Shown here one piece after another: positions 301 through 5,872 of a DNA stretch of 64,000 bases. How positions within the stretch are numbered: the first letter of the stretch is position 1; each line of letters opens with the position of its first letter. The stretch spans positions 1-64,000 of the forward strand of contig NZ_JADCDB010000019.1 of the NCBI RefSeq assembly GCF_020252395.1, written 5' to 3'. The notes under the pieces are model-generated. The model was not told the origin of the DNA and searched no databases. It saw nothing but the letters and a program-made list of their open reading frames with translations. The stretch is from Aestuariivirga sp. (lineage in GTDB: Bacteria > Pseudomonadota > Alphaproteobacteria > Rhizobiales > Aestuariivirgaceae). Made by a program: the position numbers and the translations under genes.

Positions 301-678
301 TTGCCTCCGAAGCGTGATCTGGAGGTCCCTCACTTTCTCGGCCGGCATGTCCTTGCGGAGTTCTGGGAGTGCAGCAACGTCGACAATCCCGCCACCGTCC
401 AGACTGCGATGGTCGCGGCCGCGAAGGTGGCGGGAGCGACTGTTCTGAACGCCAATCTCCACCACTTCGGCGAGGGAATGGGCGTTACCGGAGTGCTGAT
501 CCTGGCAGAGTCGCATATGAGCATCCATTCCTGGCCCGAGTACGGCTACGCCGCGATTGATGTCTTTGTCTGCGGCAAGGCCGACCCGCACAAGGCGATC
601 GATTCGTTGAGGCATGCTTTCAGCCCCAAGCGGGAGGTCATCACCGAACATACGCGCGGCGATCAGTTCCATGGATGA
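301..678 (+). CDS. speD: S-adenosylmethionine decarboxylase-like pyruvoyl enzyme (SpeD family)
   Basis: The 125-residue protein matches the short bacterial SpeD proenzyme, which cleaves itself to make a pyruvoyl cofactor and normally decarboxylates SAM to the aminopropyl donor for polyamines. The cleavage motif [11 protein letters not shown] is intact, with the pyruvoyl-forming Ser71, His76 and Cys91 all present. The TTG start follows an AAGG Shine-Dalgarno seven bases upstream. It is the first gene of a run of overlapping genes. No spermidine synthase is nearby, and some SpeD homologues are reported to decarboxylate arginine or ornithine instead, so the substrate here is open. Confidence 0.88.
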   Translation: [125 protein letters not shown]

Positions 679-1807
679 AGTCGCGGGGAAGGCTATGCGC
701 ACTGTCTCGGTCCTCCGGGAACGTCGCAGCCGTGAAAGACGGGTCATCCTTCTTCCGGAGCATGTGGCTGAGTTCATTGCGCGCGGTTATCAGGTGCTGG
801 TCGAGACGGACGCAGGAACGCTCGCCGGGTTCGGGGATGCGGCTTACATGGCTGCTGGAGCCAGGATCGTGGATTGTGAAGAGGCCTGGTCGGGTTGCAG
901 CCTGGTCCTCAAATACAAGGCGCCGGGCCCGGAGGAGTACCGGTTCTTCAGGCCCGGACTCCATCTGGCGAGTTTCATGCATGCGGAGGGCAACGCTGCC
1001 TTGGTCGAAGCCATGCGGGCCAGCGGCATGAGCGCCTACGCGCTGGAGTTCTTCCGCACCGTTCGAGATGAATTCCCGGTGCCCGTTTCGGACAACGAGA
1101 TCTCGGGAAAGCTTGGCGTTCTTCTCGGTGCCTATCATCTGCAAGCCCACATGGGTGGAAGCGGCGTATTGCTGTCCGATGTTCCGGGTGCGCCGCGCCC
1201 GAAGGTGGTGGTGATCGGATACGGCAATGCGGGCGGTGCAGCGGCCCGGCTCGCCGCGGCGATGGGAGCCGACGTCACCGTGTTCGGCACACGCTGGGAA
1301 GGGCTGCGCCGCTTCATGGCCGGCATGCCGGCCAATGTCCGTTTCATGCTCAACGAGCCTGCTGCATTCGAGGCCGCAGTTCTCGAAGCGGACCTGGTCG
1401 TGGGCGCCATTCTGATCTCCACCTACGACACGCCGGAAATGCTCAGCGAGCACCTGGTGCGGCGCATGAAGCCCGGCTCCGTGATCGTCGACGTGACCTG
1501 TGGGTATGGCCGCGGTTACATGCCAAGCTTCGACCAGCTAACGACCTATGATGCGCCCTTCTATGAGCGGCACGGCGTGCTGCACTGCAAGATCGATGCA
1601 ATGCCGGCCTCGGTACCGCTGACAGCCGCACGCGCGACCAGCGCCAATGTCTGGCGGTATCTCTTTGGCCTTGCCCGCTCTGTGTGCGAAGGTGTGGACG
1701 ATCCCGTATCCCGCAATGGATGTGTCGTTTCGGGAGGCGCCGTCTTGCACCCTGAAGTCCTTCGGCATCTTGCCATGGAGCAAGCAGGCCTCGCCCATGC
1801 CTTATAG
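671..1807 (+). CDS. Alanine dehydrogenase / N5-carboxyethylornithine synthase-like NAD(P) oxidoreductase
   Basis: The ATG at 671 overlaps the end of the SpeD-like gene by 8 bp, giving 378 residues; a second ATG at 695 is possible. The N-terminal part carries ERRVILLPEH and a K-Y-K-A-P segment like the substrate lysine region of alanine dehydrogenase, then a conserved His in FMHAEG. A Rossmann nucleotide-binding motif GYGNAGGAAA follows at mid-protein. The family (AlaDH/PNT) includes alanine dehydrogenase and N5-(1-carboxyethyl)ornithine synthase, an opine-forming reductase. Next to a decarboxylase and two methyltransferases, reductive amination or opine formation is my inference; the substrate is unknown. 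Confidence 0.7.
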   Translation: MDEVAGKAMRTVSVLRERRSRERRVILLPEHVAEFIARGYQVLVETDAGTLAGFGDAAYMAAGARIVDCEEAWSGCSLVLKYKAPGPEEYRFFRPGLHLASFMHAEGNAALVEAMRASGMSAYALEFFRTVRDEFPVPVSDNEISGKLGVLLGAYHLQAHMGGSGVLLSDVPGAPRPKVVVIGYGNAGGAAARLAAAMGADVTVFGTRWEGLRRFMAGMPANVRFMLNEPAAFEAAVLEADLVVGAILISTYDTPEMLSEHLVRRMKPGSVIVDVTCGYGRGYMPSFDQLTTYDAPFYERHGVLHCKIDAMPASVPLTAARATSANVWRYLFGLARSVCEGVDDPVSRNGCVVSGGAVLHPEVLRHLAMEQAGLAHAL

Positions 1808-3836: not shown

Positions 3837-4632
3837 ACCGGTCACCGATGCCATCGGCGGATGGCTGCGTGAGGCGGATGGCGATTTGCGCCGGGACCAC
3901 CGCCTGCTGGAGCAGATCGCCCCATCCGAACTCAGTGCCACGCACCTTGCCTATTTCGAGGATTATCGACAGCGCTATTTCAATGATCGCCTCATTCCCG
4001 GCCAGGGCGTTGAGGAGATCCAGTCGATGCTGCTCCAGCATGGCGGCAGTCCACGGAACTGGGCCGATCTCGGAGCAGGTGTCACGACGCTTTACTGGTC
4101 GATCGGCGTGTCTCCGACGGGTTCGATCTGCGCCTGCGACCTCGTGCCTGAAGCGCTGCATGTGCTGGCCGGCTTCAAGGAAAGCGCCGAGCTTCCGCCG
4201 TGCTATGGCGAGACTCTGGGCTTGCTAGGGAAAACGCCGGCCGATATCGAAGCGGTGCGGCGGCTGAGCTGGAGCTATCATGTCATGGACTGCCTCGCCC
4301 CTTGGACCATTCCGGGCAGGGAAGCAGGTTTCGATCTTGTCACTGCGGTGGGGTGTTTCGGGCTGGCGGCGGATGCTGGCGCCTATCGCGTTGCATTCCA
4401 GGCTGCCTGTGATGCTCTCGCTCCCGCGGGGCGCCTGGCTGGGGCGGACTGGATCAGAAGTGCGCGCTTCATCGACATGGAAGGACATGACAATCGCTAC
4501 CTGTCTGCCAGCCTTGCGTCCCACTGCGCCCGCGAAGCAGGTCTGACGCCGCTGAGGGTCCAGGAGGTCACCATTTCAGACGATCCCTACTATGATGCTG
4601 TCATCGTCTGGGCCTTCGGCTCAAGTGGTTGA
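3808..4632 (+). CDS. NNMT/PNMT-like SAM-dependent methyltransferase
   Basis: The chosen ATG has an AAAGGA Shine-Dalgarno just upstream and overlaps the MFS gene by 29 bp, giving 274 residues; a second ATG at 3829 is possible. Motif I is WADLGAGVTTLYW near residues 87-99, followed by ACDLVPE, and a later FDLVTAVGCFGLAADAG segment resembles the region before motif IV in the nicotinamide/phenylethanolamine N-methyltransferase group. This hints at an amine acceptor. Whether it adds successive methyl groups or shares the work with the earlier methyltransferase is not visible. Confidence 0.65.
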   Translation: MAQCRPPMSRPVTDAIGGWLREADGDLRRDHRLLEQIAPSELSATHLAYFEDYRQRYFNDRLIPGQGVEEIQSMLLQHGGSPRNWADLGAGVTTLYWSIGVSPTGSICACDLVPEALHVLAGFKESAELPPCYGETLGLLGKTPADIEAVRRLSWSYHVMDCLAPWTIPGREAGFDLVTAVGCFGLAADAGAYRVAFQAACDALAPAGRLAGADWIRSARFIDMEGHDNRYLSASLASHCAREAGLTPLRVQEVTISDDPYYDAVIVWAFGSSG

Positions 4633-5872
4633 CAGCTCCGCCGTTCCTGAGAATTGGGCCGGCCTCCCGCCGCCCAACGGGAATGTGGCGGACGATGAGC
4701 TGCTGGTGCTCATTGAGCAAGGTGCGGACAGGATTCTTGCCGAAACGGGCGTCCGCTTCGAGGGTGACCCTGAAACACTGGACATGTGGCGGCAGCACGG
4801 TGCCCGCGTGGTGGAGGACCGGGTGTACCTAGATGGCGAAGCGCTGCGCGCCATCATCCGCAGCAGCGCTCCTCCCCGCGTAACCCTGCGCGGCCGGAAC
4901 CCGCAGCGTGACGTGACCATCGGCGATGGCGAGCGGCCCGTGTTCGCCCCGGTCTATGGTCCGCCGAACGTTCTCCTCCGCGACGGCCAGCGCCAGCCCG
5001 GCAGCCTGGCGCACTACACCGAGCTCGTCCGTCTGGCGCATGAAGCGTCAGCGCTGACCTGCACCGGGCACATGCTATGCGTGATGAATGACGTGCCCGA
5101 GGCGGCGCGGCCCCTGGAAATGGCCTGGGCCCACCTCGCGCATTCGGACAAGCCCTTCATGGGCACCGTCGCCTCGCCAACGGCAGCCCGGGATGTCATC
5201 TCGCTGGTGAGCAAGGCGGTAGGGCGGGCGGCACAGGCAGGTTCGTGCAATCTGCTGCATCTCATCAACTCCACGCCACCCCTCACCTTCAAGGAAAACC
5301 CGCTGAAGTGCCTGCGGACCATCGCCCGCTGTGGCGAGGGCGCCATGGTGACGTCCTACATGATGATGGGGGCGACCTCGCCGGTGACAGTGTCAGGCGC
5401 CCTCATGCAGGGCTACGCGGAGGTGATGGCGGGGCTTGCGCTTGCGCAGCTCTGGTCGCCCGGTGCGCCTGTGGTGATGGGGATATATGCACTGCCGTTC
5501 TCGATGCGAAGCATGTTGCCCGTTTTCGGCGATCCGGTTGCGCACATGGTACAGATGTTCTCTGTCAGGCTGGCGAGAAGGCTCGGGGTTCCGGCGCGCG
5601 GAGACGGCGGGGTGACGTCCGCAAAGGTCGATGATGGCCAGGCCGGCTATGAAGGCGCCAGCGCGAACGCGGCAGCCATCTTGTCTGGCGCCGATTTCGT
5701 CCTGCACAGTGCGGGCTGGCTGGAACTGGGACGATGCACGTCCTTCAGCAAGTTCGAGCGCGACGCAGCGATGATCGGGGCGATGCTCGGCCTGGGAGCC
5801 GCCGTCCAGGCCTCTCCACTCATGCTCGATCCCGCATTGCAACGCGAGTTCCAGGCCCTGCTGCCGCCGTAG
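4592..5872 (+). CDS. Trimethylamine methyltransferase (MttB)-family protein, non-pyrrolysine type
   Basis: This is a 426-residue member of the MttB family, whose members move a methyl group from quaternary or tertiary amines to a corrinoid protein. The reading frame contains no in-frame amber codon, so it belongs to the pyrrolysine-lacking branch, which acts on compounds such as glycine betaine or carnitine. It is somewhat shorter than the usual 450-500 residues. It overlaps the previous methyltransferase by 41 bp from the ATG used here; GTG at 4625 is an alternative. No corrinoid protein, reactivase or MtbA-like partner is in the window, so a demethylase role is unproven. Confidence 0.68.
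   Translation: MMLSSSGPSAQVVDSSAVPENWAGLPPPNGNVADDELLVLIEQGADRILAETGVRFEGDPETLDMWRQHGARVVEDRVYLDGEALRAIIRSSAPPRVTLRGRNPQRDVTIGDGERPVFAPVYGPPNVLLRDGQRQPGSLAHYTELVRLAHEASALTCTGHMLCVMNDVPEAARPLEMAWAHLAHSDKPFMGTVASPTAARDVISLVSKAVGRAAQAGSCNLLHLINSTPPLTFKENPLKCLRTIARCGEGAMVTSYMMMGATSPVTVSGALMQGYAEVMAGLALAQLWSPGAPVVMGIYALPFSMRSMLPVFGDPVAHMVQMFSVRLARRLGVPARGDGGVTSAKVDDGQAGYEGASANAAAILSGADFVLHSAGWLELGRCTSFSKFERDAAMIGAMLGLGAAVQASPLMLDPALQREFQALLPP

Follow-up and report, generated by a model that had tools for sequence, protein, structure and literature searches.

A conserved, apparently mobile operon built around SpeD and an alanine dehydrogenase-like reductase that probably spends decarboxylated S-adenosylmethionine on an exported amine

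The six-gene operon

The window analysed here is the whole 64,000-nucleotide stretch of the genome of Aestuariivirga sp. (assembly GCF_020252395.1) that extends from base 1 of the 92,873-base contig NZ_JADCDB010000019.1. At 301-5872, six genes on the forward strand encode, in this order, a pyruvoyl decarboxylase of the S-adenosylmethionine (SAM) decarboxylase family (SpeD), a reductase resembling alanine dehydrogenase (AlaDH) and denoted AlaDHL, a methyltransferase (MT1), a transporter of the major facilitator superfamily (MFS), a second methyltransferase (MT2) and a protein of the MttB family (Table 1). When the first-named start of each gene is used, adjacent open reading frames (ORFs) overlap at four of the five junctions (by 11 bp between AlaDHL and MT1), and MT1 and MFS are separated by a gap of 9 bp. 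This agrees with the preliminary description of the locus, which was made from the sequence alone and listed six same-strand genes with overlaps at most junctions.

Table 1. Genes of the operon and the adjoining repeat
Feature	Coordinates	Strand	Remarks
SpeD	301..678	+	TTG start as listed; class 1b pyruvoyl S-adenosylmethionine decarboxylase; proposed source of decarboxylated SAM (dcSAM)
AlaDHL	671..1807	+	AlaDH/PNT-family reductase with a remodelled active site; start 671 or 695; longest ORF from 614
MT1	1797..2588	+	class I SAM-binding methyltransferase fold; PF13649; candidate dcSAM user or N-methyltransferase
MFS transporter	2598..3836	+	PF07690 (MFS_1); presumed exporter
MT2	3829..4632	+	NNMT-like small-molecule methyltransferase; start 3829 or 3808
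MttB-family protein, short C-terminus	4592..5872	+	PF06253; start 4592 or GTG 4625; putative accessory tailoring protein
Repeat end, probably of an insertion-sequence element	1..139	.	contig end; about 160 bases before SpeD

Conservation, distribution and mobility

Two AlaDHL motifs, used to scan 84,980 species, matched 168 stretches, 10 of which are relatives, from Frigidibacter, a Granulosicoccaceae metagenome-assembled genome (MAG), two Rhodobacteraceae, an Aestuariivirgaceae MAG (the G039 contig), Ferruginivarius, two Streptomyces, Bradyrhizobium and a Comamonadaceae MAG. The operon is rare, with these 10 loci being a count that is limited by the motifs used. Together with the window and a third Streptomyces, there are 12 distinct loci, and the hosts, according to the record titles, represent several classes of Proteobacteria, plus Streptomyces. 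In G039, which belongs to another genus of the same family, the six genes occur in the same order, with protein identities of 55, 68, 39, 52, 49 and 55%, respectively, and the recurrence of this order at 39-68% identity indicates that the arrangement goes beyond chance. The full six-gene order was also found in Frigidibacter, the Granulosicoccaceae MAG and a Rhodobacteraceae MAG (partly frame-broken), the core of SpeD, AlaDHL and MT1 in Ferruginivarius, a Bugula-associated Rhodobacteraceae and the three Streptomyces, and a rearranged version in Bradyrhizobium. Hence the neighbourhood search suggested in the preliminary description did find the six genes together, in the same order, in other genomes.

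SpeD adjoins AlaDHL at all 12 loci, on the same strand and within 116 bp at 11 of them; in Bradyrhizobium (L054), SpeD is on the opposite strand, about 1.6 kb away. No AlaDHL gene was detected beside other SpeDs at 11 inspected loci (L004-L013 and L045, with flanks of about 1.5 kb, longer for L045). MT1 is present at each of the 11 loci where the contig continues (as fragments in L056), MT2 at nine of the 10 loci that can be judged (L049 and L055 being left out), with the exception of Ferruginivarius, and an MFS transporter of the window type occupies the same position in the operon at seven loci, the window counted. The MttB gene is present at five loci and missing at five, the remaining two being not judgeable. 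The minimal version, in Ferruginivarius (L051), consists of SpeD, AlaDHL, MT1 and MFS only.

The sister of the window in the trees of both AlaDHL and SpeD is Frigidibacter, not G039, although the latter belongs to the window's own family. Across eight loci, the pairwise identities in one of the four shared families correlate with those in another at 0.91-0.96; because the pairs are related to one another, no significance is claimed for these values. Judged from these comparisons, the operon is a real, conserved entity that travels as one unit and is horizontally mobile. Its distribution within the host lineages is sparse: AlaDHL is present in two of 295 Streptomyces (query genome counted) and in one of 394 genomes of the Frigidibacter family, namely, the query genome itself, and MT2 is found in one of 297 genomes of the window's own order, again its own genome. 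A sample of 398 genomes from the phylum yielded 73 with an AlaDHL match, that is, the window's own genome and 72 at no more than 40% identity, which resemble ordinary AlaDHs. Among plasmids, 235 records contain an AlaDH-like match, all below 60% identity and at most 41% among the 25 matches listed, and the plasmid search with MT2 produced no match.

The repeat at the contig end has 12 further copies in the same genome, with 99-100% identity, three of which begin on the first base of a contig; the operon is thus adjacent to a probable insertion element. An 81% copy of this repeat, probably also an insertion-sequence end, is located inside the window, at 19604-19734. Directly downstream of the operon, on the same strand, lies a sugar-type ABC importer (binding protein, ATPase and two permeases; 5942-10299), which was considered as a part of the operon and rejected; of the two of its four proteins used as queries, the binding protein has no match at the other operon loci compared, and the ATPase, among other loci, matches only a 34% stretch in L051. 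Several neighbourhoods have features of their own. In the MAG locus L056 (1821-2733), AlaDHL and MT1 are frame-broken, through decay or assembly error. In Bradyrhizobium (L054, 6914-15362), a radical SAM/SPASM enzyme and two large proteins without a Pfam match (524 and 466 amino acids) are encoded beside AlaDHL, MT1 and MT2. Downstream of the G039 operon (L044, 7674-9975), there are genes for an AraC-type regulator and a Rieske oxygenase, the latter 29% identical to that of the Streptomyces cluster, and in L048 (14414-17071), a full-length MttB-family gene and a GCV_T-family gene follow right after the operon on the opposite strand.

SpeD and the methionine salvage genes of Streptomyces

SpeD matches PF02675 with 120.7 bits and exceeds the cut-off of TIGR03330, the equivalog family of SAM decarboxylase (AdoMetDC). 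It is the sole PF02675 match in its genome; of the 36 other genomes of the genus, one has a SpeD match, a weak one. A 23-residue stretch, ESH...IHSWPE...CG, aligns with its counterpart in chains 1vr7 and 1tlu, which we take to be the AdoMetDC of Thermotoga maritima. The Ser, His and Cys residues in this region (S63, H68 and C83 in T. maritima), given as the processing and catalytic residues of SpeD in the accessible text of PMC10407285, are kept in all 12 cluster SpeDs, which bears out the earlier assignment as a pyruvoyl decarboxylase with complete catalytic residues. The absence of a spermidine synthase, previously noted for the window, extends to the whole genome, where SpeE (PF01564) has no match, and SpeE is likewise without a match in six of the 10 host genomes searched, the window's counted (the L051 host and G781 were outside this search).

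The three Streptomyces clusters share one order, SpeD-AlaDHL-MT1-MT2-Rieske-MtnB-MtnD-MtnC-aminotransferase-MtnP-MetK. In L053, MtnB, MtnC, MtnP and MetK score above the NCBIfam cut-offs (TIGR03328, TIGR01691, TIGR01694 and TIGR01034, respectively), MtnD is assigned by the Pfam family ARD, the aminotransferase, with a best family score below the cut-off, would be MtnE, and the Rieske protein is GbcA-like, far under the cut-off of that family (214 vs 670). Two of the clusters (L060 and L053/L061) continue with a TetR regulator, an MFS transporter that is about 25% identical to that of the window, a SARP-type regulator and MtnA fused to adenine phosphoribosyltransferase (APRT). In the third, L052 of Streptomyces sioyaensis, MtnA is on the same contig but on the other strand, about 10 kb from MtnB. 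Directly after MetK, where the other two have TetR, L052 carries a gene of the isocitrate-lyase/PEP-mutase family (17607-18392), at which the locus ends.

The methionine-salvage cycle converts methylthioadenosine (MTA) back to SAM. Methyl transfer yields S-adenosylhomocysteine, not MTA. MTA is the product of aminopropyl or 3-amino-3-carboxypropyl (ACP) transfer and of SAM cyclisation, as described in the accessible part of PMC10491745. Given that MTA salvage is useful only if MTA is released, its presence in these clusters suggests that SpeD makes dcSAM and that the aminopropyl part is used; taken together, the conserved SAM-type active-site stretch and the Streptomyces salvage set point to dcSAM formation and MTA release. 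Thus, the formation of true dcSAM by the cluster SpeD is well supported, and the most likely course of the pathway is that dcSAM is consumed and MTA set free. As a control, 20 other Streptomyces were taken from the 293 without AlaDHL: 16 of these have no MtnB above the cut-off, and 13 have a single MtnA match.

Salvage modules of this kind also occur elsewhere: two other sets were observed, one beside FecCD uptake genes and the other beside radical SAM and GCS2 genes. The former (L067; G503, contig C13, 3617-12830) comprises MtnP, MtnC, MtnD, MtnB, MtnA and MetK in the neighbourhood of genes for a methyltransferase and for siderophore-type uptake (FecCD/periplasmic) and might represent a metallophore pathway with MTA release. 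The latter, a different Streptomyces cluster (L069; G494, contig C19, 3987-17891), combines MtnA-APRT, MtnB, MtnC, MtnD and MetK with genes for a 2-hydroxyacid dehydrogenase, radical SAM, alanine-racemase-like and haem-oxygenase-like enzymes and a GCS2 ligase, and is perhaps another MTA-releasing pathway.

These data bear on an alternative that the preliminary description had also raised, namely, that SpeD has turned into an amino acid decarboxylase, of the ornithine (ODC) or arginine (ADC) type, and that the product is an N-methylated derivative of a di- or polyamine, formed without dcSAM. Apart from the lack of SpeE in the window's genome, this alternative is favoured by a precedent: according to the accessible text of PMC10407285 (JBC 2023), SpeD homologues without SpeE act as ADC or ODC in several phyla, with one proline separating AdoMetDC from ADC and four residues marking ODC. 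However, the WPE motif, with a proline that may or may not be the discriminating one, and the SAM-type stretch are present in 12 of the 12 cluster SpeDs, the window's SpeD passes the AdoMetDC equivalog cut-off, and MetK and MTA salvage in Streptomyces would be pointless for ODC or ADC. A changed decarboxylase is therefore unlikely.

A reductase of the alanine dehydrogenase family with a remodelled active site

AlaDHL contains the N- and C-terminal AlaDh_PNT domains (PF05222/PF01262) and falls below the cut-off of the alaDH family TIGR00518 (264.5 vs 391.85 bits). In a tree with the nearest homologues, the cluster members form one clade with the support of 1.0. The residues of 10 full-length cluster members were compared with those of the 29 nearest homologues, taken as AlaDHs, with positions counted on chain 2vhv, presumably the Mycobacterium tuberculosis AlaDH, in which residue 270 is Asn, interpreted as an engineered substitution. 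All 10 members keep the equivalents of Arg15, Lys75 and His96, and all 10 have Gly in place of Asp270 (Asp in 27 and Asn in two of the homologues), Asp in place of Met133, Ala or His in place of Asn300, and Gly or Val in place of Asp198 (Asp in 26 of the 29); they also gain a Lys-Ile-Asp motif. Loss of an Asp198-type residue in an NAD site points to NADPH use; because its equivalent is lost here, AlaDHL can be suggested to use NADPH and to work in the direction of reduction. In AlaDH, His96 and Asp270 are essential, Arg15 and Lys75 hold pyruvate, and Asp198 contacts NAD, according to the accessible text of PMC4691113 and PMC10401832. A retained oxoacid site combined with a remodelled amine site is what an opine-type synthase would need, and the earlier view of an AlaDH-like, opine-like reductase is consistent with the kept oxoacid Arg/Lys and His and with the loss of the Asp270 and Asp198 equivalents.

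The MttB-family protein

The assignment of the last gene to the MttB family stands, with a PF06253 match of 357 bits and an E-value of 5.5e-81 to 4yyc. The match covers positions 29-407 of the 500 in the model, and all five operon copies end soon after the conserved core; for comparison, the 516-amino-acid MttB relative in L048 covers positions 12-498. The reported absence of a corrinoid protein holds for the window, with no PF02607 match on its contig, but not for the genome, which encodes two B12-binding_2 (PF02607) proteins, both on contig C12. MttB is the least conserved member of the operon, being present at five of the 10 judgeable loci; among those that lack it, three have a Rieske oxygenase and one has a radical SAM enzyme, so that it looks like a tailoring rather than a core component.

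MttB is also the starting point for the opposite interpretation, in which the operon imports and degrades an N-methylated compound, with MFS acting as the importer, MttB demethylating the compound and AlaDHL oxidising it. The MttB family is chiefly associated with the utilisation of methylamine and betaine (9yce is a glycine betaine methyltransferase), L048 has the full-length MttB and GcvT-family pair next to the operon, and L044 has the Rieske gene with the AraC-type regulator. Nevertheless, SpeD and two methyltransferases spend SAM, as in synthesis, half of the judgeable loci dispense with MttB, two Streptomyces copies are accompanied by SARP and TetR regulators, as biosynthetic clusters are, and the loss of Asp198 in AlaDHL suggests NADPH and reduction. 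Breakdown accordingly appears improbable.

The methyltransferases and the fate of dcSAM

MT1 matches Methyltransf_25 (PF13649), and its best-matching relatives of solved structure are class I methyltransferases, among them several N-methyltransferases. MT2 itself has no match to any Pfam or NCBIfam family; a profile of eight relatives retrieves NNMT as all 10 best PDB sequences (E-values from 6e-4 to 0.013), and the 41% identical relative from S. sioyaensis passes PF01234 (NNMT_PNMT_TEMT; 29.1 vs 25 bits), so the description of the second methyltransferase as NNMT-like is supported. The assignment of dcSAM use to an enzyme is the least secure part of this reading, and MT1 is the favoured candidate because L051 keeps only SpeD, AlaDHL, MT1 and MFS.

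A further alternative is that dcSAM donates no aminopropyl group and is either cyclised to an azetidine, in a displacement like that of AzeJ, or kept whole in a sulfonium product. Enzymes with the methyltransferase fold can cyclise SAM with the loss of MTA, as reported in the accessible part of PMC10491745, and the operon contains no known aminopropyltransferase. No sequence evidence, however, singles out a cyclised or whole dcSAM, and a whole-sulfonium product would have no need of MTA salvage, which makes this fate of dcSAM about as improbable as breakdown.

Proposed pathway

The interpretation that we favour, with moderate confidence, is that of a horizontally moving operon of specialised metabolism that converts dcSAM into an exported N-methylated amine of the aminopropyl or opine-like type. 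In the first and well supported step, SpeD would decarboxylate SAM to dcSAM. AlaDHL would then couple an amine with a 2-oxoacid (for example, pyruvate) at the expense of NADPH, in an opine-type reductive amination. An enzyme with the methyltransferase fold, most likely MT1, would move or cyclise the aminopropyl group of dcSAM and release MTA, this release being supported by the Streptomyces clusters. N-methylation by MT2 and export by MFS would follow, and the product would be tailored in a lineage-specific manner by MttB in Proteobacteria, a Rieske oxygenase in Streptomyces and a radical SAM/SPASM enzyme in Bradyrhizobium. Overall, the operon very probably spends dcSAM on an exported amine, the product, the acceptor and the dcSAM-using enzyme being putative. 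The preliminary description had left open whether the operon makes and exports, or uses, an N-methylated amine or opine-like compound; making is favoured, though not proven. Its view of a single operon with probable export is supported.

Several observations weigh against this pathway. The three Streptomyces clusters are alike (62-92% identity to L053) and related, so that the salvage link may be a single event and may count once, and no Mtn genes or MetK were found beside the proteobacterial copies, at eight loci and in the 64-kb window. Another MtnA/MtnB set is present in four of the 20 control Streptomyces and in the host G494, and two or more MetK genes occur in 11 of the 20 controls, the hosts having two, three and four. 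In the SpeD tree, which is unrooted and based on a short protein, the Streptomyces, Bradyrhizobium and Ferruginivarius SpeDs group with housekeeping SpeDs, apart from the other operon SpeDs. Four of the 10 host genomes, G039, G493, G494 and G491 (weakly), have a SpeE-family match. Pfam, NCBIfam and profile searches detected no known aminopropyltransferase family, PF01564 or other, among the six operon proteins, and by sequence, both MT1 and MT2 resemble methyltransferases. Ordinary spermidine synthesis with unrelated neighbours, to which the classical role of SpeD and these four SpeE-containing hosts would point, is nevertheless rejected as highly implausible, as it was in the preliminary description, given the lack of SpeE in the window's own genome, the conservation of the six-gene order across classes and the separate SpeD-SpeE pair on another contig in G039.

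The main known role of dcSAM is that of a precursor of polyamines. If real, a mobile pathway that diverts it to a specialised metabolite would open another route to natural products and assign a new function to the reductase family, and speD unaccompanied by speE would not necessarily indicate an altered decarboxylase, because dcSAM may go elsewhere. In a bolder and more tentative version, which we consider possible although somewhat doubtful, the operon would represent a class of dcSAM-based natural products outside the polyamines, in which an AlaDH-derived, NADPH-dependent opine synthase and an aminopropyltransferase or cyclase with the methyltransferase fold yield an N-methylated aminopropyl-opine or an azetidinium betaine, and the cassette moves among Proteobacteria and, with its own MTA-recycling module, Streptomyces. 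The motifs FMHAEGN and HCKIDAM beside speD provide a handle for genome mining.

Comparison with known systems

No described cluster or pathway matching the operon was found in full-text literature searches aimed at it or at AlaDH and opine enzymes, with subscription papers and preprints outside the reach of this search. The opine metallophore operons of the staphylopine/pseudopaline type encode CntL, CntM and an MFS exporter, and the putative pathway shares their logic, in that a SAM-derived aminoalkyl group is used with MTA release, an opine-type reductase acts on a 2-oxoacid and an MFS protein exports the product. The components differ: the six operon proteins have no NAS-like (CntL) or ODH-family (CntM) Pfam match, SpeD would make dcSAM first, the reductase belongs to the AlaDH family, and two methyltransferases and MttB are added. 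In microcin C biosynthesis (MccD/MccE), as far as the accessible text goes, an enzyme with the methyltransferase fold also moves a SAM-derived aminoalkyl group with MTA release, whereas the decarboxylase is dependent on pyridoxal phosphate, unlike SpeD. The SpeD/SpeE spermidine pathway has SpeD in common with the operon, but SpeE is in neither the operon nor its genome.

Among the individual proteins, the operon MttB belongs to the same family as MtgB (9yce), 4yyc and 2qne, but its C-terminus is short in all five copies, no corrinoid gene accompanies it in the window, and the operon around it spends SAM. AlaDHL shares the fold family and the Arg15/Lys75/His96 equivalents with alanine dehydrogenase (TIGR00518; 2vhw), from which it differs in the four replaced positions and in its score. 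N5-(carboxyethyl)ornithine synthase is an NADPH-dependent opine synthase of the AlaDH family and, by its known function rather than by sequence comparison, serves as the functional model for AlaDHL.

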